From: Flavobacteriaceae bacterium
GTDB taxonomy: Bacteria; Bacteroidota; Bacteroidia; Flavobacteriales; Weeksellaceae
DNA: 64,000 nt
Assembly: GCA_012522185.1 (NCBI GenBank)
Contig: JAAYKY010000049.1
Span: 1 to 64,000 of the forward strand
Direction: 5' to 3'
Shown here: positions 4,072 to 59,152 of the stretch, one piece after another
Numbering within the stretch: the stretch's first letter is position 1
Layout of the letters: each line of letters opens with the position of its first letter
Program-made: the position numbers and the translations under genes
The notes under the pieces: generated by a model
Database searches by the model: none
What the model saw: the letters and a program-made list of their open reading frames with translations, nothing else
What the model was told of the DNA's origin: nothing

Positions 4072-4470
4072 GGGGCTGACTGGTTTTGACAGCAAGGTCA
4101 ATGGATGAAGTAAGCATGTCGTGGAATGTTGTGTACCCACGTAAATCAGACACTTCACATTTTTAACTGGCAACAACAATTACGCTTTAGCTGCCTAATT
4201 GACTGAATTATAGTAAGTCTTGGCGCATCTCTACAAGGTAGGGAAGCTAAATGTCTCTCAAAGGCCTTTCCTTACGGCGTTTGATCAAGAGGCACAGAAA
4301 TGTGAGGATAGGCAGAAGGGAGTTCCGGAATTCTGCCGAAATTTAAGGAACTAAGTTGCAGATAGGGTGTTTGTTTTCGGTCTGCAATCGAAAATCAATG
4401 ACAAACTAAACATGTAGAAAGCTCATAGGTTGCTTGTTTGGACGCGGGTTCGAATCCCGCCAGCTCCACC
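4072..4470 (+). ncRNA. ssrA: tmRNA (transfer-messenger RNA)
   Basis: The 5' end GGGGCTG (4072-4078) pairs with CAGCTCC (4461-4467) to form the acceptor stem, and the T-arm GCGGGTTCGAATCCCGC is just before it. The tag frame at 4169-4195 reads GNNNYALAA and ends in TAA (4196-4198); with the charged alanine the tag is A-GNNNYALAA. The RNA rescues stalled ribosomes together with SmpB. The encoded 3' end is ACC followed by T, so the terminal A of CCA must be added after transcription. The 3' end is a common integration site, and the accessory island begins directly behind it. Confidence 0.97.
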
Positions 4471-4562
4471 TCTAGGGACAGGTCTAAAAAAGGAAGACTT
4501 GTCTCTTTATTTTTTTCTCTGCAACTTATTGTTATTCTGATAGGTAAGAGCGATGGCGGAAT

Positions 4563-17924: not shown

Positions 17925-18031
17925 GGGCGTGCCACCGTCCGCATTTTTCCACCATGCCCATGCTATCGAAAAAATGCAGACGGGTCGGGCTATCCGCTGT
18001 ATCTTTTGCGGATCTGCGAGTACCGCAAAAG
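17925..18031. repeat. Two consecutive hairpins downstream of topB remnant
   Basis: GGGCGTGCCACCGTCCGCATTTTT (about 17925-17948) folds with AAAAATGCAGACGGGTCGGGC (about 17970-17990), imperfect but long. CTTTTGCGG (18003-18011) pairs exactly with CCGCAAAAG (18023-18031). Both lie beyond the 3' end of topB. They could be its terminator region or structured DNA of the conjugative element. Confidence 0.55.
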
Positions 18032-18080
18032 GATGTCGCTTCTATCCCTCACGCTGTATGCCGTTCAGAAACATTTACTT

Positions 18081-50750: not shown

Positions 50751-52453
50751 TGCACGGAATTGACTGGATTATATTGATTGGTTCGATGTTGTTCATCGTG
50801 GTTTACGGTGTTTGGAAGACGCGTGGTCAAAGCAGTGTGCAGGATTTTCTGAAAGGAAATGACTCAAATTGGTTTACCGTGGGATTGTCCGTAATGGCGA
50901 CTCAGGCCAGTGCGATCACCTTTCTTTCCACACCCGGACAAGCCTTTCACGACGGGATGGGTTTTGTACAATTTTACTTCGGATTGCCGATTGCGATGGT
51001 CATCATCTGTCTGGTTTTCATTCCTTTGTATCATAAATTAAATGTTTATACGGCTTACGAATTTTTGGAAAGTCGTTTTGATCTGAAAACCAGAACTTTA
51101 ACGGCTTCTTTGTTTTTAATTCAAAGAGGTTTATCGGCTGGAATTACCATTTTTGCGCCTTCGATAATTTTGTCTGCAGTTTTGGGTTGGGATCTGACTT
51201 GGTTGAACATCATCATCGGTTCGTTGGTCATTATTTATACTGTTTCGGGCGGAACCAAAGCGGTAAATGTCACCCAGAAACAGCAAATGTCGATTATGAT
51301 GGGCGGAATGGCGGTGGCATTTGTCATTTTGGTTTATTCGCTTCCCGATGGAATTAATTTCTCCAATGCCTTGGAAATTGCGGGCGCAAGCGGTAAAATG
51401 GACATTCTGGATTTTTCATTTGATTTTGATAACCGATACACGATTTGGAGCGGAATCATAGGCGGAACTTTCCTTTCACTGAGTTATTTCGGAACGGATC
51501 AAAGTCAGGTTCAGCGCTATCTGAGCGGAAAATCGGTGAAGCAAAGTCAGATGGGAATGATCATGAACGGATTTCTCAAAGTGCCGATGCAGTTTTTCAT
51601 TTTGCTCGTGGGCGTGATGGTTTTTGTGTTTTATCAATTCAATCCTTCTCCCTTGAATTTTAATCCGGTGGCTCAGAAATCCATTGAAAATTCAACCTAT
51701 TTTGAGCAATATTCAGAATTGGAAAATGAGAATTCAAAGAATTTCGAAGCGAAAAAAGATTTGATTTTTAATTATGTAAGTGCGGAAGAAACTGAAAAAA
51801 TAGCTTTGAAAAAAGCCATTATTTCTGCTGAAAACAAAGACAAAGAATTGCGCGAAGAAGCACGTCAAATCATTTCCCAAGCCGATTCCACGGTTGAAAC
51901 CAACGATAAAGACTATGTTTTCATTCATTTCATCCTGAATCATCTCCCGAAAGGCATTATCGGCTTGTTGCTGGCCATGGCATTGTGCGCGGCGATGTCT
52001 TCTACGGCTTCAGAATTAAATGCTTTGGCAACCACCACAACCATGGATTTGTACAAACGCAACAATGACGGAGAAACGGACGGGCATTATCTGAAAGCTT
52101 CGAAATGGTTTACGCTTATGTGGGGTGTGCTGGCGATTTTATTTGCCTGCGTTGCGGATTTGTTTGACAATTTAATTCAGTTGGTAAACATCATCGGATC
52201 GATATTTTACGGGAATGTTTTGGGGATTTTTCTGCTGGCATTTTTCTTCCGTTTTGTCCGAGGAAATTCGGTATTCATTGCGGCGATCATTACGCAAATT
52301 ATTGTGATCATCGGATGGAAATTTGACTGGATGCCGTATTTATGGTTGAATTTGTTTGGATGTGCTTTGGTGATTTTGATTGCGGTTTTCATTCAGACGA
52401 TTTGGAACAAACCGGATAACGAATTAGATGAATTGGAAGAAATAGGAAAATAA
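50750..52453 (+). CDS. Sodium:solute symporter (SSS family)
   Basis: The 567-residue protein has about 13-14 membrane helices with SSS hallmarks: VGLSVMATQASAITFLSTPGQ, AYEFLESRFDLKTRTLTA, YTVSGGTKAVNVTQKQQ, and a GTFLSLSYFGTDQSQVQRYL helix. Between helices near residues 305-380 lies an insertion of about 80 charged residues (ELENENSKNFEAKKDLIF, ISAENKDKELREEARQII). A sugar or amino-sugar substrate is suggested by the PIG-L gene. It is coupled to the 38-residue gene. Confidence 0.9.
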   Translation: MHGIDWIILIGSMLFIVVYGVWKTRGQSSVQDFLKGNDSNWFTVGLSVMATQASAITFLSTPGQAFHDGMGFVQFYFGLPIAMVIICLVFIPLYHKLNVYTAYEFLESRFDLKTRTLTASLFLIQRGLSAGITIFAPSIILSAVLGWDLTWLNIIIGSLVIIYTVSGGTKAVNVTQKQQMSIMMGGMAVAFVILVYSLPDGINFSNALEIAGASGKMDILDFSFDFDNRYTIWSGIIGGTFLSLSYFGTDQSQVQRYLSGKSVKQSQMGMIMNGFLKVPMQFFILLVGVMVFVFYQFNPSPLNFNPVAQKSIENSTYFEQYSELENENSKNFEAKKDLIFNYVSAEETEKIALKKAIISAENKDKELREEARQIISQADSTVETNDKDYVFIHFILNHLPKGIIGLLLAMALCAAMSSTASELNALATTTTMDLYKRNNDGETDGHYLKASKWFTLMWGVLAILFACVADLFDNLIQLVNIIGSIFYGNVLGIFLLAFFFRFVRGNSVFIAAIITQIIVIIGWKFDWMPYLWLNLFGCALVILIAVFIQTIWNKPDNELDELEEIGK

Positions 52454-52456
52454 AAA

Positions 52457-52487
52457 TTGGCAAATTCAAAATCAATTTCTAAATTTG
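52457..52487 (+). promoter_or_regulatory. trp operon promoter
   Basis: TTG (52457-52459), 20 bp and TAAATTTG (52480-52487) match the Bacteroidota consensus. It begins 4 bp past the symporter stop codon. The expected start near 52493 would leave only a few bases before the leader ATG. Confidence 0.7.
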
Positions 52488-52499
52488 AAAAATCAAAAC

Positions 52500-52556
52500 A
52501 TGAAAAATTTAGAATTAAATAACAATTGGTGGTGGACTTCGCAACTTCGAAAGTAG
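52500..52556 (+). CDS. trpL: trp leader peptide with three consecutive Trp codons
   Basis: The 18-residue ORF MKNLELNNNWWWTSQLRK ends with TAG. Three TGG codons in a row lie at 52527-52535. A terminator hairpin starts 31 bp behind the stop, and trpE begins 83 bp behind it. This arrangement is the standard leader-peptide attenuation design, where ribosome stalling at Trp codons lets polymerase pass the terminator. Confidence 0.85.
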   Translation: MKNLELNNNWWWTSQLRK

Positions 52557-52587
52557 TGAAGCTATACCTCTTGGAATAAAATCAAAG

Positions 52588-52613
52588 GCCCGTCTTCACG
52601 ACGGGCTTTTTTT
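52588..52613 (+). terminator. trp attenuator (terminator hairpin in the trp leader)
   Basis: GCCCGTC (52588-52594) pairs with GACGGGC (52600-52606) and a run of seven T follows. The loop contains TTCAC. CTTCAC (52594-52599) is complementary to GTGAAG (52556-52561), which overlaps the leader stop, so a weak antiterminator of 6 bp is possible. Confidence 0.8.
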
Positions 52614-52639
52614 GTATCCGAAATTCTGAAACTTTAAAA

Positions 52640-54037
52640 ATGAAATATAAATTACATACCAAATCACGAAAATTTCTGGCTGATACCATCACGCCGGTAT
52701 CGGTCTATCTCAGATTGCGCGACAAATTTCCTCACTCCATTTTGTTGGAAAGTTCTGATTATCATGCCAATGAGAATGCATTCAGCTATATTTGTTTTCA
52801 ACCGATGGCTTCCATAAAAGTGCAGAATGAAGAATTGCTCAAAGAATTTCCCGATGGGAAGACAGAACGAGTTTCTTTGAATGATTCGGTGAATTTAGTG
52901 GCTGAAATTCAGGGTTTTGCTTCTAATTTTGAAGCCAATCCAAGTTCGGAGAAATTCATCCAAAACGGATTATTTGGTTACATGAGCTATGATGCGGTAC
53001 GCTATTTTGAAGATTTAAAAATCAAAAAAAAGGATGGAGATTTGCAAATTCCCGATTTGTATTATGCCGTTTACCGAAACATTATCGCCATCAATCATTT
53101 CAACAATGAAGCCTATGTTTTCAGTCATAGTACAGACGGTTCAGACAATTTGGATGAAATTTCAAGTTTGTTGAAAGTCAAATCTTTTGCGGAATTTGAA
53201 TTCAAAAAACAGGGAACACCTCAAACCAATATTTCTGATGAGGAATATAAGGAACTGGTGCAGAAATGCAAAGACCATTGTCAGCGGGGTGACGTATTTC
53301 AGATTGTACCTTCCAAACGGTTCATTCAGAAGTTTTCGGGTGATGAATTCAATGTTTACCGCACATTGCGGAGTGTAAATCCTTCGCCTTATTTGTTTTA
53401 TTTTGATTATGGTGATTTTAAAATATTCGGAAGTTCACCTGAAGCTCAGTTGGTAATCAATAATAGAATAGTAGAAATACATCCGATTGCCGGAACGGTT
53501 AAAAGAACCGGAAATGATGAGGAGGATGCGGTTTTGGCTAAAAAATTAAGCAATGACCAAAAGGAAAAATCGGAACATGTGATGCTGGTGGATCTGGCGC
53601 GAAATGATTTAAGTCGAAATGCACGGAATGTTCGGGTGGAGGTGTTTCGGGAGGTTCAATATTTCTCACATGTGATTCATCTGGTGAGTAAAGTGACAGG
53701 TGAAATCCAAAAAGAAATCCATCCGTTTCAGGTCGTTGCCGATAATTTTCCGGCCGGAACTTTGAGCGGCGCTCCCAAATACAAAGCCATGTCGCTTTTG
53801 GAAAAATACGAAAATGTCAATCGTGATTTCTATGGTGGCGCCATTGGTTTTATGGGATTTGACGGAAGCTTTAACCATGCGATTATCATCCGTTCGTTTG
53901 TAAGTAAAAATCATCATTTGTATTATCAGGCGGGAGCAGGAGTGGTTTCTGGAAGTGTTCCGGAAAATGAATTGCAGGAAGTTTATAACAAATTGGGCGC
54001 TTTAAACAAAGCTTTGGAATTAGCAGAACAAATATAA
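52640..54037 (+). CDS. trpE: Anthranilate synthase component I
   Basis: The 465-residue chorismate-using subunit starts the tryptophan pathway. Motifs are QIVPSKRFIQKFSGDEFNVY, FYFDYGDFKIFGSSPEAQ, IHPIAGTVKRTGNDEEDAV, HVMLVDLARNDLSRNARNV and FPAGTLSGAPKYKAMSLLEK. LLESSDYHANENAFSYICF near the N-terminus covers the tryptophan feedback site region. It is the first structural gene behind the attenuator; trpG starts 5 bp after it. Confidence 0.97.
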   Translation: MKYKLHTKSRKFLADTITPVSVYLRLRDKFPHSILLESSDYHANENAFSYICFQPMASIKVQNEELLKEFPDGKTERVSLNDSVNLVAEIQGFASNFEANPSSEKFIQNGLFGYMSYDAVRYFEDLKIKKKDGDLQIPDLYYAVYRNIIAINHFNNEAYVFSHSTDGSDNLDEISSLLKVKSFAEFEFKKQGTPQTNISDEEYKELVQKCKDHCQRGDVFQIVPSKRFIQKFSGDEFNVYRTLRSVNPSPYLFYFDYGDFKIFGSSPEAQLVINNRIVEIHPIAGTVKRTGNDEEDAVLAKKLSNDQKEKSEHVMLVDLARNDLSRNARNVRVEVFREVQYFSHVIHLVSKVTGEIQKEIHPFQVVADNFPAGTLSGAPKYKAMSLLEKYENVNRDFYGGAIGFMGFDGSFNHAIIIRSFVSKNHHLYYQAGAGVVSGSVPENELQEVYNKLGALNKALELAEQI

Positions 54038-54042
54038 AATTC

Positions 54043-54612
54043 ATGAAAAAAATATTAGTCATTGACAATTACGACTCTTTTGTGTACAATTTGGTGCATT
54101 ATTTAGAGGAATTTGACTGTGAAGTAACGGTGCGTCGCAACAATCAGATTGAACTTTCAGAAGTGGAAAGTTTTGATAAAATTTTACTGTCGCCCGGCCC
54201 GGGAATACCATCCGAAGCCGGTAAAATGATGGAAATCATCAGAGAATTAGCTCCGACCAAGAGCATTTTGGGTGTTTGTCTTGGCCAACAAGCCATCGGC
54301 GAAGTATTTGGCGGAAAACTGGAAAATCTGGATGATGTATTTCATGGCGTCGCTACTTTTTCTATCGTCAAAGTATCCGACGAACCTTTATTTCAGAACA
54401 TTCCGAGTCATTTTGAAATCGGAAGATATCATTCCTGGGTTGTTTCCCGTGAAAATTTTCCGGATGAATTGGAAATCACATCGGTAGATGAAAACGGACA
54501 AATTATGGCGCTTCGCCACAGAAATTATGATGTGCGCGGCGTTCAATTTCACCCTGAAAGCATCTTGACACCCAATGGAAAAAAGATAATTGAAAACTGG
54601 GTGAAACTTTAA
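54043..54612 (+). CDS. trpG: Anthranilate synthase component II (glutamine amidotransferase)
   Basis: The 189-residue class I glutaminase supplies ammonia to TrpE. It shows IDNYDSFVYNLVHYLEEF, the LSPGPGIPSEAG motif, the nucleophile cysteine in LGVCLGQQAIGEVFGG and the catalytic His-Glu in QFHPESILT. It is not fused to TrpD, in contrast to enteric bacteria. The spacing to trpE is 5 bp, and trpD starts 55 bp after it. Confidence 0.97.
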   Translation: MKKILVIDNYDSFVYNLVHYLEEFDCEVTVRRNNQIELSEVESFDKILLSPGPGIPSEAGKMMEIIRELAPTKSILGVCLGQQAIGEVFGGKLENLDDVFHGVATFSIVKVSDEPLFQNIPSHFEIGRYHSWVVSRENFPDELEITSVDENGQIMALRHRNYDVRGVQFHPESILTPNGKKIIENWVKL

Positions 54613-54667
54613 AATATTACAACTCCCTCAGAGAAACCTGACCCGATTCGCCAACAAATCAAACGCC

Positions 54668-55663
54668 ATGAAAAGCATAATACAAAGACTAACACACTAC
54701 GAACAATTGAGCAAAGAAGAAGCCCGAAATCTTTTGGTGGATATTTCCGAAGGAAAATACAATCCGGGTTCCATTGCGGTTTTGCTCACGGTATTTATGA
54801 TGCGTCCGATTACGATTGTCGAATTGGAAGGGTTTCGAAATGCGCTGCTCGAACTCTGTAAAAAAGTGGATTTGGGAGATATTGAAACCATCGATTTATG
54901 TGGAACGGGTGGTGACGGAAAAAATACTTTCAATATTTCCACGTTGGCGTCTTTTGTCGTCGCCGGTGCCGGAATTCCGGTTACAAAACATGGAAATTAT
55001 GGCGTTTCCTCGGTGAGCGGAAGCAGTAATGTGTTGGAATCTTTGGGTGTGAAATTCAGTTCCGATGATGATTTTTTGAAGCGAAGTCTAAATGAAGCCG
55101 GAATTTGTTTTTTGCATGCGCCTTTGTTTCATCCGACCATGAAAAATGTCGCGCCCGTCCGAAAGGAATTGGGGCTGAAAACCTTTTTCAATATGTTGGG
55201 TCCGATGATCAATCCGGCCTTTCCCAAACATCAATTGGTTGGGGTTTTTGATTTGGAATTGATGCGTATGTATGGTTATCTGTATCAAAAAGGTGATAAG
55301 AATTATACGATTCTGCATTCGCTGTCCGGACATGATGAAGTCTCTCTGACGGCGGATTGTAAATTCATTACGAATGAAAAAACAGGGATTTTTTCTGCTC
55401 CGGAATTGGGCATTTCAAAAATTCAGGAGGAAGAAATTTTCGGTGGCAAATCTTTGGAAAATGCTTCGCGGATTTTTCGACAAATTATATCAGGCAAAGG
55501 AACCGAAGCCCAAAACAATGTAGTTGCAGCCAATGCAGGAATCGCCATTTCTATGGTTAAAAATATTCCGGTGAAAGATGGATTCGAACTAGCAAAAGAG
55601 AATTTGCTGAATGGAAATGCCGAAAAATCTTTGAATAAATTAATTAAACTGAGTAGAAATTGA
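54668..55663 (+). CDS. trpD: Anthranilate phosphoribosyltransferase
   Basis: The 331-residue enzyme attaches phosphoribose to anthranilate. The PRPP site is DLCGTGGDGKNTFNIST, followed by KHGNYGVSSVSGSSNVLESL and the RKELGLKTFFNMLGPMINP segment. Length and order are typical. The operon continues with trpC, starting at TTG 54 bp downstream. Confidence 0.96.
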   Translation: MKSIIQRLTHYEQLSKEEARNLLVDISEGKYNPGSIAVLLTVFMMRPITIVELEGFRNALLELCKKVDLGDIETIDLCGTGGDGKNTFNISTLASFVVAGAGIPVTKHGNYGVSSVSGSSNVLESLGVKFSSDDDFLKRSLNEAGICFLHAPLFHPTMKNVAPVRKELGLKTFFNMLGPMINPAFPKHQLVGVFDLELMRMYGYLYQKGDKNYTILHSLSGHDEVSLTADCKFITNEKTGIFSAPELGISKIQEEEIFGGKSLENASRIFRQIISGKGTEAQNNVVAANAGIAISMVKNIPVKDGFELAKENLLNGNAEKSLNKLIKLSRN

Positions 55664-55717
55664 ACTTAGTGTCCATTGTGAAAATCATTGTGCACTTTGT
55701 GGTTAAAAATTATAAAA

Positions 55718-56503
55718 TTGAACATTTTAGATAAAATAATTACCGATAAAAAAAAGGAAGTTGAATTGAAAAAATCAATTATTCCGGCTTCGCAATTGGA
55801 GAATTCCGTTTTATTTCAGCGGGAAACGATTTCATTAAAAGAAAAACTGAAAAATTCTTCTACCGGAATTATAGCCGAATTTAAAAGACGTTCGCCTTCC
55901 AAATCCCAAATCAATCAATCCGCCAATGTGGGCGATGTTGCCAAAGGCTACGAAAAAGCTGGCGTTTGTGGAATGTCGGTTTTGACCGATATCAAATATT
56001 TTGGCGGTTCTTTAGAGGACTTGTTATTGGCGCGGGCTAGTTGTGATTTGCCATTGCTCAGAAAAGAATTCATCGTGGACGAATTTCAGATTTTGGAAGC
56101 CAAAGCTTTCGGAGCCGACTTGATTTTGCTGATTGCGGCTGTTTTGAGTCGGAATGAAATCGAAAAGCTTTCAAAATTCGCGAAGAGTCTGGGATTGGAA
56201 GTTTTGCTGGAGGTTCATGATCTCGAAGAATTGGAAAAATCGATTATGGCCAGTCTGGATTTAATCGGTGTCAATAACCGCGACCTCAAAACTTTTGAAG
56301 TGAACTTGGACAATAGTAAAAATCTGGCTCCGCATATTCCCGATGAATTTTTAAAAGTTTCTGAAAGTGGAATTAGTAATCCTGATTCGATTAGGGAGTT
56401 GCAATCATTTGGTTATCAGGGATTTTTGGTTGGCGAAAATTTCATGAAAACGGAAAATGCAGGAAAATCTGCTAATGAATTCATTCAAAACTTAAACCGA
56501 TGA
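55718..56503 (+). CDS. trpC: Indole-3-glycerol-phosphate synthase
   Basis: The 261-residue TIM-barrel enzyme has MNILDKIITDKKKEV at the chosen TTG start (55718); an in-frame TTG at 55688 would add 10 residues but is less likely. Motifs are IIAEFKRRSPSKSQIN, AGVCGMSVLTDIKYFGGSL, LPLLRKEFIVDEFQILEAKA and IGVNNRDLKTFEVNLD. It is not fused to TrpF; the two overlap by 4 bp. Confidence 0.95.
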   Translation: MNILDKIITDKKKEVELKKSIIPASQLENSVLFQRETISLKEKLKNSSTGIIAEFKRRSPSKSQINQSANVGDVAKGYEKAGVCGMSVLTDIKYFGGSLEDLLLARASCDLPLLRKEFIVDEFQILEAKAFGADLILLIAAVLSRNEIEKLSKFAKSLGLEVLLEVHDLEELEKSIMASLDLIGVNNRDLKTFEVNLDNSKNLAPHIPDEFLKVSESGISNPDSIRELQSFGYQGFLVGENFMKTENAGKSANEFIQNLNR

Positions 56504-57123
56504 AACTCAAAGTTTGTGGGATGAAATATCCTGAAAATATAAAATCCATTTCGGACTTAAAACCCGATTTTTTAGGTTTTATCTTTTATGAGAAATCGGC
56601 GCGGTTATTTGAGGAAAAAGCGATTGAAGTTTCCCCGCAAGTTCAAAAAGTGGGGGTTTTTGTAAATGAAAGTCCGGAAAAAATTACCCAAAAAATTCAG
56701 GAATTTCAATTGGATATTGTTCAGTTGCACGGGGATGAAACACCTAAAGATTGTGAAAAATTGAAACAATTAAATCCTGAAATTAAAATCTGGAAAGCTT
56801 TTGCAATCAATGAAGAATTCGATTTTGGAGAATTAGAAAATTATGAAGTGGTCGATGCTTTTTTATTGGACACAAAAGGAAAAAATTATGGTGGAAACGG
56901 TGTGAAATTCAATTGGGAAATTTTAAAAAATTACAATTCAGAGAAAGAAATCATTTTGAGCGGAGGAATTTCGGAGGAGGATATTCCACGTATTGTTGAA
57001 ATACAAAAAGAAATTCCCCAAATCCAAACCGTTGACATCAACAGTCGGTTTGAAACTCAGCCGGGTTTGAAAAACGTGGAATTGGTAAAGAAATTTTATC
57101 AAAAATTAAAACTATTGAAATGA
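56500..57123 (+). CDS. trpF: Phosphoribosylanthranilate isomerase
   Basis: The 207-residue TIM barrel has the general-acid cysteine in [13 protein letters not shown], then [25 protein letters not shown] and [20 protein letters not shown]. The aspartate that pairs with the cysteine is in FLLDTKG. The ATG overlaps the trpC stop (ATGA), as does trpB with the end of trpF. Confidence 0.95.
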
Positions 57124-58301
57124 ATTATCAAGTAGATAAAAAAGGATATTACGGCAAATTTGGCGGAGCTTTCATTCCTGAAATGTTATATCCGAATGTG
57201 GAAGAACTGAAATCGGTTTATTTGGAAATAATCGAATCGGAGCCTTTTCAAAAAGAATTTCAGAAATTGTTGAAAGACTATGTGGGACGGCCAACGCCTC
57301 TGTATTTCGCACAAAGATTATCGGAAAAATACGGAACCAAAATTTATTTGAAACGGGAAGATTTATGCCACACCGGAGCGCATAAAATCAACAATACACT
57401 TGGACAAATTATTCTCGCCAAAAAGTTGGGGAAGAAACGCATCATTGCAGAAACCGGAGCCGGACAGCACGGGGTTGCGACGGCGACTGCCTGTGCTTTG
57501 ATGGGCTTGGAATGCATTGTTTATATGGGCGAAATTGACATCGCGCGACAAGCGCCAAATGTCGCCCGAATGAAAATGTTGGGCGCAACCGTAATTCCGG
57601 CAAAATCGGGAAGCAGAACGCTGAAAGACGCCACAAACGAAGCCATTCGCGATTGGATAAATAATCCGGTGGATACATATTACATCATCGGTTCGGTGGT
57701 AGGTCCGCATCCTTATCCCGATATGGTGGCGAGATTTCAGTCGGTGATTTCGGAAGAAATAAAATCCCAGTTAAAAGAAGCCGAAGGCAAAGAAAATCCG
57801 GATTATGTGATTGCCTGTGTAGGTGGTGGAAGCAATGCTGCCGGCGCATTTTATCATTTTCTGGACGAAGAAAAAGTGAATTTAATTGCGGTAGAGGCAG
57901 CAGGAAAAGGCATTCATTCGGGCGAAACGGCGGCGACTTCCGTTTTGGGTCGGGAAGGAATTATCCATGGAAGCAAAACACTGTTGATGCAAACCGAAGA
58001 CGGACAAATCACGGAACCTTATTCGATTTCGGCGGGACTGGATTATCCGGGAGTCGGACCGATGCATGCGCATCTGTGTGAAAGCGGAAGAGCCGAATTT
58101 TTATCGGTCACGGACGATGAAGCCATGCAAGCCGGAATTCAATTAACCCAAATGGAAGGCATCATTCCGGCGATTGAGAGCGCTCATGCATTTGCAGCTT
58201 TAGAAAAGAAAAACTTCAGTCCGGAAGAAATTGTGGTCATTAATCTTTCCGGTCGGGGAGATAAGGATTTGAGTACCTATATTAAATATTTTGCCATATA
58301 A
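57120..58301 (+). CDS. trpB: Tryptophan synthase beta chain
   Basis: The 393-residue PLP enzyme condenses indole with serine. Landmarks are [20 protein letters not shown], the PLP lysine in [39 protein letters not shown] and [36 protein letters not shown] and [13 protein letters not shown] follow. It is standard TrpB1 type. It overlaps trpF by 4 bp. A 44-bp gap with the repeated 17-mer separates it from trpA. Confidence 0.98.
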
Positions 58302-58314
58302 GAATTACGAAATT

Positions 58315-58331
58315 CGAAGTTCGAGTTTCGA
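58315..58331. repeat. 17-bp sequence, inverse copy of 29486-29502
   Basis: CGAAGTTCGAGTTTCGA lies in the trpB-trpA gap and is complementary to the spacer sequence at 29486-29502. The surrounding AAATTCGAAGTTCGAG is self-complementary. Confidence 0.5.
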
Positions 58332-58345
58332 CAAACGAATTAAAA

Positions 58346-59110
58346 ATGAATCGAATTCAACAAAAATTAGCAGAAAACAAAAAAATACTATCTATTTATT
58401 TCACGGCTGGATTTTCGGAGTTGAATGACACCCAATCCATCATTGAAGCACTCGAAAAATCGGGTGTGGATATGATTGAAATCGGATTGCCGTTTAGCGA
58501 TCCTTTGGCCGATGGTCCGACCATTCAGGCGAGTTCCACAAAAGCACTTGAAAACGGAATGACGACAGAAATTTTGTTTGAACAATTGAAAGACATCCGA
58601 AAAACCGTTTCCATTCCGTTGATAATTATGGGTTATTTCAATCCGATTTTACAATATGGAGTGGAAGAATTTTGTGCAAAATCTGCCGAAATAGGCATCG
58701 ATGGTTTGATCATTCCCGATTTGCCGGTGGACGTTTATCATGAAAATTACCAATCCATTTTTAAGAAATATAATTTGACCAATGTCTTTCTGATTACGCC
58801 TCAAACGAGCGAAGAAAGAATCCGTTACATCGACAGTCTTTCGGATGGATTTATTTATATGGTGAGTTCGGCGAGTGTGACCGGCGCAAGGAATTCGTTT
58901 GGAAGCGAAGAATTGGATTATTTCAAAAGAATTCATGAAATGAACTTGAAAAATCCGCAAATCGTTGGATTTGGAATCAGTAATAAGGAAACTTTTGAAT
59001 CGGCAACCGTCTATGCAAAAGGAGCGATCATCGGATCGGCATTTGTGAAATTCATCGCGAAAAATCCGATAGAAAAGATTTCGGAATTCATTCAAAGGAT
59101 TAGAAAATAA
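58346..59110 (+). CDS. trpA: Tryptophan synthase alpha chain
   Basis: The 254-residue TIM barrel cleaves indole-3-glycerol phosphate. MIEIGLPFSDPLADGPTIQA contains the catalytic Glu, GIDGLIIPDLPVD the Asp. IYMVSSASVTGARNSF and VGFGISNKETFESA form the phosphate site. It is the last gene of trpEGDCFBA and is followed directly by a terminator hairpin. All seven enzymes for chorismate to tryptophan are therefore present in one transcriptional unit. Confidence 0.97.
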   Translation: MNRIQQKLAENKKILSIYFTAGFSELNDTQSIIEALEKSGVDMIEIGLPFSDPLADGPTIQASSTKALENGMTTEILFEQLKDIRKTVSIPLIIMGYFNPILQYGVEEFCAKSAEIGIDGLIIPDLPVDVYHENYQSIFKKYNLTNVFLITPQTSEERIRYIDSLSDGFIYMVSSASVTGARNSFGSEELDYFKRIHEMNLKNPQIVGFGISNKETFESATVYAKGAIIGSAFVKFIAKNPIEKISEFIQRIRK

Positions 59111-59152
59111 AAAGGTGGCTATCCGACATTTGGGGATAGAAGCCACCTTTTT
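59111..59152. terminator. Bidirectional terminator between trpA and DUF2911 gene
   Basis: AAAGGTGGCTATCC (59111-59124) pairs with GGATAGAAGCCACCTTT (about 59134-59150), with one bulged A, followed by TT and preceded by A-rich sequence. It serves trpA on one side and the converging gene on the other. Confidence 0.8.

Follow-up and report, generated by a model that had tools for sequence, protein, structure and literature searches.

The leader of the trp operon in the 64,000-nucleotide stretch of DNA analysed here (the window) is, judging from its sequence and from modelled folds, a ribosome-mediated transcription attenuator of the Bacteroid-trp family (RF01692), an assignment that we hold with high confidence, and it very probably turns the trp genes on only under tryptophan shortage. 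The trp leader RNA of Bacteroidota was already known (2010); what is new is the 5' end of this leader. From the promoter sequences we think it fairly likely that most of the Flavobacteriales sampled translate the trp leader peptide from a message that is leaderless or almost so, a trait that would be conserved in a group that is rarely leaderless and initiates without Shine-Dalgarno sequences.

A sequence-only reading of the window had proposed a promoter, an 18-codon ORF with three TGG codons and a terminator ahead of trpE. All of the elements that it listed are present in the sequence exactly where it had put them, and the locus is laid out as follows:

52457..52459, + strand: -33 element TTG, 20 nt ahead of the -7 box (sequence)
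52480..52487, + strand: -7 element TAAATTTG (TAnnTTTG) (sequence; matched exactly by 98 of 104 homologous leaders)
52492, + strand: predicted transcription start, from the box position in F. psychrophilum (-12 to -5), giving a 5' UTR of 8 nt
52500..52556, + strand: leader peptide ORF trpL, MKNLELNNNWWWTSQLRK, 18 codons, stop codon TAG at 52554-52556 (sequence)
52527..52535, + strand: three consecutive Trp codons TGG TGG TGG, the proposed stall site (sequence; WWW conserved)
52537..52542, + strand: region 1 (CTTCGC), partner of region 2 if the RNA is ribosome-free (fold; comparative support weak)
52553..52561, + strand: region 2 (GTAGTGAAG), overlapping the leader stop codon, with 6 contiguous bp and 8/9 in total with region 3
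52594..52602, + strand: region 3 (CTTCACGAC), made up of the final base of the terminator 5' arm, the loop and 3 nt of the 3' arm (region 2:region 3 pairing counts; ribosome-masked folds)
52556-52561 and 52594-52599, + strand: antiterminator core, GTGAAG and CTTCAC (sequence)
52584..52613, + strand: intrinsic terminator hairpin and T run (terminator scan, conservation, alignment)
52640..54037, + strand: trpE (ORF; NCBIfam TIGR00564, E 1.3e-130)
54043..59110, + strand: trpG, trpD, trpC, trpF, trpB and trpA (ORFs and NCBIfam matches; gene order trpEGDCFBA)

The terminator stem (52584-52594 with 52600-52610) has 11 pairs around the loop TTCAC, with seven T at 52607-52613, and the segment 52488-52618, which includes it, folds at -35.5 kcal/mol (z -5.1, equalled by 0 of 200 shuffles). 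The leader stop lies 83 nt from trpE, whose match to TIGR00564 scores 436.5 bits, under the curated cut-off of 517.7. TGGTGGTGG was found once in the 64 kb with both strands counted, at the leader. Just 3' of trpA and ahead of a convergent gene, an inverted repeat at 59109-59152 (AAAAAGGTGGCT...AGCCACCTTTTT) looks like a bidirectional terminator.

The leader-peptide logic proposed from the window recurs across related trpE loci. We compared 110 such loci, namely the best 80 of 424 confirmed named genomes and 30 of the 39 matching family genomes from a family search that covered 60 genomes; the set includes one repeat, L033 and L114, which have identical TrpE. A short ORF with WWW lies at most 700 bp upstream of trpE in 104 of the 110, and among 1266 control tiles of the window the six positives are all the leader itself. 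By script, a terminator follows the WWW leader in 103 of the 104, and L117 shows an inverted repeat and a T run in its sequence, so that the hairpin, too, proved to be conserved. The WWW motif is invariant in our alignments A1 and A2 by selection and was therefore not used as evidence. Six trpE loci are without WWW. L128 has an FWW leader, and L133 and L136 have only doubtful WW ORFs; the other three, L120, L122 and L139, are all from genus g16, where G020 and G044 have their RF01692 match some 1.2-1.4 kb upstream of trpE. In G020 (locus L020) the order is leader, trpB, trpE, with the attenuator keeping the head of the operon and the gene order altered.

The nearest named relative, among the best 80 of 424, is Moheibacter lacus, whose TrpE is 81% identical to that of the window, which comes from a Moheibacter-like genome. 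The other 79 named loci of those best 80, mostly Flavobacteriaceae, have 65-71% TrpE identity to the window, and matches in its own family outside the genus have 46-59%. In its terminator type, too, the window matches the named, mostly Flavobacteriaceae loci. A horizontally acquired trp operon would account for this, as would a family-boundary issue.

The antiterminator was examined on alignment A1, which holds 36 diverse sequences drawn from 85 of the window's terminator type and pruned at 85% identity. The pairing of regions 2 and 3 is kept in 84.9% of cells, with four pairs altered on both sides; 0 of 500 shuffles reach as high on either measure, and the register is the best of all slides. 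The pairing seen in the window is thus conserved in relatives, with its outer pairs less regular (one unpaired in 17 of 36 sequences, another in 22 of 32). On the same alignment the terminator is 99.7% paired and the hairpin of regions 1 and 2 is paired in 63.3% of cells, with slid registers scoring higher on several covariation measures; this hairpin is present in the window's own fold. Two terminator types were found, that of the window (79 distinct loci) and a GACTT type (16 distinct loci), and region 2 overlaps the leader stop codon in 79/79 of the former and 5/16 of the latter. In GACTT-type loci region 2 pairs mainly with the terminator 5' arm. Loci of the window's type have on average 5.0 pairs on the 5' arm, 5.5 on the loop and 2.3 on the 3' arm, and the window itself has 1, 6 and 2, respectively. 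The antiterminator would capture not just the 5' arm of the terminator but its loop and 3' arm.

Exchanging terminators between loci gave a mixed picture. Region 2 forms a duplex with its own terminator at a mean of -14.3 and -14.1 kcal/mol in the two types and with other-type terminators at -9.5 and -11.7 kcal/mol, and the native terminator is better than every other-type terminator in 62 of 95 loci. In the other 33, some other-type terminator pairs equally well or better; the number of loci in which more than 5% of shuffles pair as well as the native sequence is likewise 33 of 95. Swaps within the window's type cost little (-13.8 versus -14.3), which is what conservation would give and is therefore no independent proof, and swaps within the GACTT type cost as much as those between types.

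Folding the RNA with a ribosome masking part of it separates three states. If the ribosome sits on any of the Trp codons and the RNA has grown to 52599 or 52602, the best fold consists of the GUGAAG:CUUCAC helix and an inner helix (-8.2 and -9.4 kcal/mol). With no ribosome, the best fold of the window is the hairpin of regions 1 and 2 and the GUGAAG:CUUCAC helix is absent, and with the ribosome on the stop codon neither forms. The folding that the earlier reading had called for thus yields its antiterminator helix when the Trp codons are occupied. When 96 distinct loci were folded with a mask up to the second Trp codon, all 96 formed at least nine pairs between region 2 and the terminator, compared with 1380 of 3840 shuffles; the median energy z is -2.55, and just 54 of the 96 have a native fold lower in energy than every one of 40 shuffles. 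Under a looser five-pair criterion, 32 of the 96 loci pair without a ribosome. Eight do so with the ribosome on the stop codon, including M. lacus (9 pairs) and the window (5). A count of antiterminators with at least five pairs had been tried as the test and was replaced by the version with at least nine, as 1202 of 1920 shuffles passed it too.

In none of the ribosome states tested does another structure surpass the finished terminator in stability. Its thermodynamic advantage persists when the ribosome is stalled, so that antitermination would need to act kinetically. The contiguous antiterminator of 6 bp, which leaves the terminator 5' arm nearly untouched (1 of 9 pairs), also speaks against attenuation. 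The sequence-only reading had correctly described this 6-bp helix and had taken its shortness as a hint that the mechanism may differ from the E. coli form; the helix stands, and the hint does not follow from its shortness alone. When the E. coli K-12 trp leader was put through the same procedure, it formed a nascent antiterminator with the stalled ribosome and a stronger finished terminator, and a short antiterminator is therefore compatible with the usual kinetic scheme.

The stability of the finished hairpin in all ribosome states tested would suit a constitutive partial terminator behind a translated, non-regulatory leader ORF, in which the hairpin merely sets basal trp expression. We consider this very improbable, as neither a WWW leader at 104 of 110 loci nor co-changing pairing of regions 2 and 3 around the stop codon would be expected without control by stalling. 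It is a little less likely still that the leader works mainly through translational coupling or in trans, as a small RNA or peptide, with attenuation secondary. The precedent is peTrpL of Sinorhizobium meliloti, where the attenuator RNA also begins at the trpL ATG and the peptide is reported to be trans-acting (PMC7298713). In the loci compared here, however, the residues of the leader peptide outside WWW vary and the RNA complementarity is retained, and the 83 nt between leader stop and trpE are far from the leader-gene peak of 11-14 bp in Bacteroidetes (PMC4833913).

Ribosome-mediated attenuation therefore remains our preferred reading. The ORF and its codons, the promoter boxes, the terminator, their conservation, the co-changing pairing of regions 2 and 3 and the ribosome-masked folds are all results of this analysis, and the course of events that we propose is built on them. 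RNA polymerase would start at about 52492, and a ribosome would load on the nearly leaderless leader ATG at 52500, which has no Shine-Dalgarno sequence. When Trp-tRNA is scarce, the ribosome would stall on the three Trp codons and mask region 1, leaving region 2 free to pair with the emerging terminator loop and the first bases of the 3' arm; this pairing would hinder nucleation of the terminator, and trpEGDCFBA would be transcribed. When Trp-tRNA is ample, the ribosome would reach the stop codon and mask region 2, and the terminator would form. We infer both termination and its dependence on tryptophan. The scheme gives an RNA family first detected computationally a concrete mechanism of three states, with base pairs that can be tested.

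The predicted 5' end comes from the promoter. In 98 of the 104 homologous leaders an exact -7 box lies 20-75 nt upstream of WWW and is followed by an in-frame start; the box by itself turns up in 36 of 839 control stretches and in 254 of 5200 shuffles. TTG ends 19 or 20 nt ahead of the box in 74 of the 98. Measured to the first in-frame ATG after the box, the spacing is 4-8 nt in 80 of these 98 leaders, 10-12 nt in five (12 in the window, which is among the 98) and at least 16 nt in 13. A sigma-70 style promoter match at 52457-52485 was rejected, since one was found where 1.0 was expected and the Bacteroidota boxes fit better. In F. psychrophilum the -7 box spans -12 to -5 (PMC9723704), and in F. 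johnsoniae candidates were accepted as probable promoters if 4 or 5 nt separated the box from the start (PMC6847099). From the box position in these two species we take the UTR to be about 4 nt shorter than the spacing; on this basis it would measure 0-4 nt in 80 of the 98 leaders, with 8 nt predicted for the window. The unusually short 5' UTR that the sequence-only reading had remarked on thus appears shorter still in most relatives, and the predicted start near 52492 lies upstream of 52540, as that reading requires. These spacings suggest that the trp leader message of the relatives usually begins almost exactly at the first codon. A second state, with a predicted UTR of about 12-15 nt, is found in Aquimarina, Aureibaculum, Lacinutrix and genus g34. 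On a quick TrpE tree, which carries a long-branch warning, there are at minimum three switches between spacings of at most 8 and at least 16 nt, with mid-spacing rows left out and the direction of switching left unassigned.

Leaderless messages make up 5.5% of the mapped mRNAs of F. psychrophilum (PMC9723704), and in F. johnsoniae leaders exceed 10 nt for 87% of the transcripts with a probable promoter (PMC6847099). In a control set of 350 ORFs of at least 200 aa from the window and the 80 named loci, a box stands 4-8 nt before the first ATG in one and within 70 nt in 16; this control is crude, since the first ATG is frequently not the true start and the ORFs include spurious ones. Leaderless messages being reported as rare in flavobacteria, leaderlessness of the trp attenuator would seem a conserved and fairly specific trait.

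As far as tested, short box spacing is not a general habit of attenuators, and short spacings do occur ahead of his leaders. Among 27 HisG loci of the family, 21 have a leader with a His run and 19 of these 21 have the box, at spacings of 13-23 and none of 8 or less. Five genomes picked by eye (G047, G025, G030, G051 and G014) have both leaders, with a trp spacing of 5 and a his spacing of 18-19. At the order level, 24 HisG matches were listed and 20 tested, after removal of two that the family set contained and two that were partial; a leader was found in 13 of the 20, with the box in nine of these and a spacing of 6-7 in two of the nine. The spacings of the His-run leaders upstream of hisG (L143-L217) are mostly not leaderless. 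Genome G000 (99.6% complete) has no HisG match and a complete trp operon, and histidine biosynthesis may be missing in it.

A second trp set was drawn from RF01692 matches in the family and phylum (29 of 36 earlier matches and all 28 new ones, with the window's own match left out). A leader was found by script in 56 of the 57 examined; the script found none in L020, which is without an in-frame ATG. The box is present in 56 of 56, at spacings of 4-7 in 33, 16-22 in 21, and 1 and 10 once each. This set is not independent, since the model includes about 20 upstream bases and the set overlaps with the first.

A literature search by title and abstract opening returned no report of a leaderless trp leader in Bacteroidota, although one may be published elsewhere. 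Bacteroidota messages are without Shine-Dalgarno sequences, and in E. coli a pause hairpin supplies the coupling of transcription and translation. If true, a start at the 5' end would let the ribosome load once the RNA leaves the polymerase and would replace the coupling given by that hairpin. A conserved trp attenuator that starts at its start codon or a few bases before it would be a compact natural reporter for how ribosomes load quickly enough to match the pace of polymerase without a Shine-Dalgarno sequence.

With regard to its family, the window leader matches RF01692 over the full length (1-131 of 131) at 48.1 bits with a cut-off of 49 (E 6.2e-5 in a 321-base search), and genome-wide it is the sole match at E of at most 0.001 (E 1.2e-4). 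Model R1, for which 33 relatives were used and both the window and M. lacus were left out, places the leader as the genome's best match (76.4 bits, E 3.5e-15), with a runner-up at 28.9 bits. The best R1 match in the same genome outside the window (L222) was rejected as a terminator only; weak phylum-wide matches have E of about 1e-3, and R1 rewards any similar terminator. In a rescan of nine related loci with RF01692, the window's own copy and E. coli aside, five pass the cut-off and M. lacus L033, L034, L077 and L119 fall below it; the same-genus relative G002 scores 66.7 bits. By R1 homology, position and anatomy we file the leader under Bacteroid-trp, whose Rfam cut-off it narrowly misses.

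At gathering cut-offs, an Rfam scan of the window returned only tmRNA (4072-4471, + strand, 169.8 bits) and a Flavo-1 RNA (17979-18059, - strand, 52.6 bits), both above their Rfam cut-offs. A relaxed scan of 52400-52720 gave 25 matches with no T-box among them, headed by Bacteroid-trp and Trp_leader; the remaining matches, with E above 0.01 and far under cut-offs, were taken as chance. Another kind of sensor (a T-box, a TRAP-type protein or a tryptophan riboswitch, systems that likewise have a terminator before trp genes) with the ORF incidental is the least likely reading of all, given these scans and a predicted RNA of about 8 nt before the ATG, too short for a sensor domain.

The sequence-only reading had cited trp attenuation from several other phyla; a trp leader RNA of Bacteroidota was in print as well: Bacteroid-trp, the 'Bacteroidete tryptophan peptide leader RNA' (RF01692), is a table row in Weinberg et al. 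2010 (PMC2864571) and has been described ahead of the F. psychrophilum trp operon (PMC6414381). For F. psychrophilum, strong clues for leader-peptide attenuation before amino-acid operons have also been reported, in a paper whose text, in the portion we draw on, mentions neither the trp leader nor how long its 5' UTR is (PMC9723704). Like Bacteroid-trp, the window leader stands before trp biosynthesis genes in Bacteroidota and has a Trp-rich leader ORF. We take the family to have a short ORF with at least two Trp codons, which WWW fits. The Rfam structure line has a long helix of the region 1:region 2 type and stops at the terminator 5' arm, so that the antiterminator of regions 2 and 3 is absent from it. 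The transcript of the S. meliloti trpL attenuator begins at the leader ATG (PMC7298713), and that of the window is predicted to begin near it; S. meliloti belongs to another phylum, and the likeness is one of start position. With the trp attenuator of E. coli, the window leader shares tandem Trp codons, mutually exclusive pairings and an intrinsic terminator, although it is no member of RF00513 (Trp_leader), against which it scores 30.3 bits with a cut-off of 41 and the E. coli leader itself scores 93.1. It differs from the E. coli attenuator in having three Trp codons rather than two, a predicted 5' UTR of about 8 nt in a phylum without Shine-Dalgarno sequences, and a region 2 whose partners are mostly in the loop and 3' arm of the terminator.
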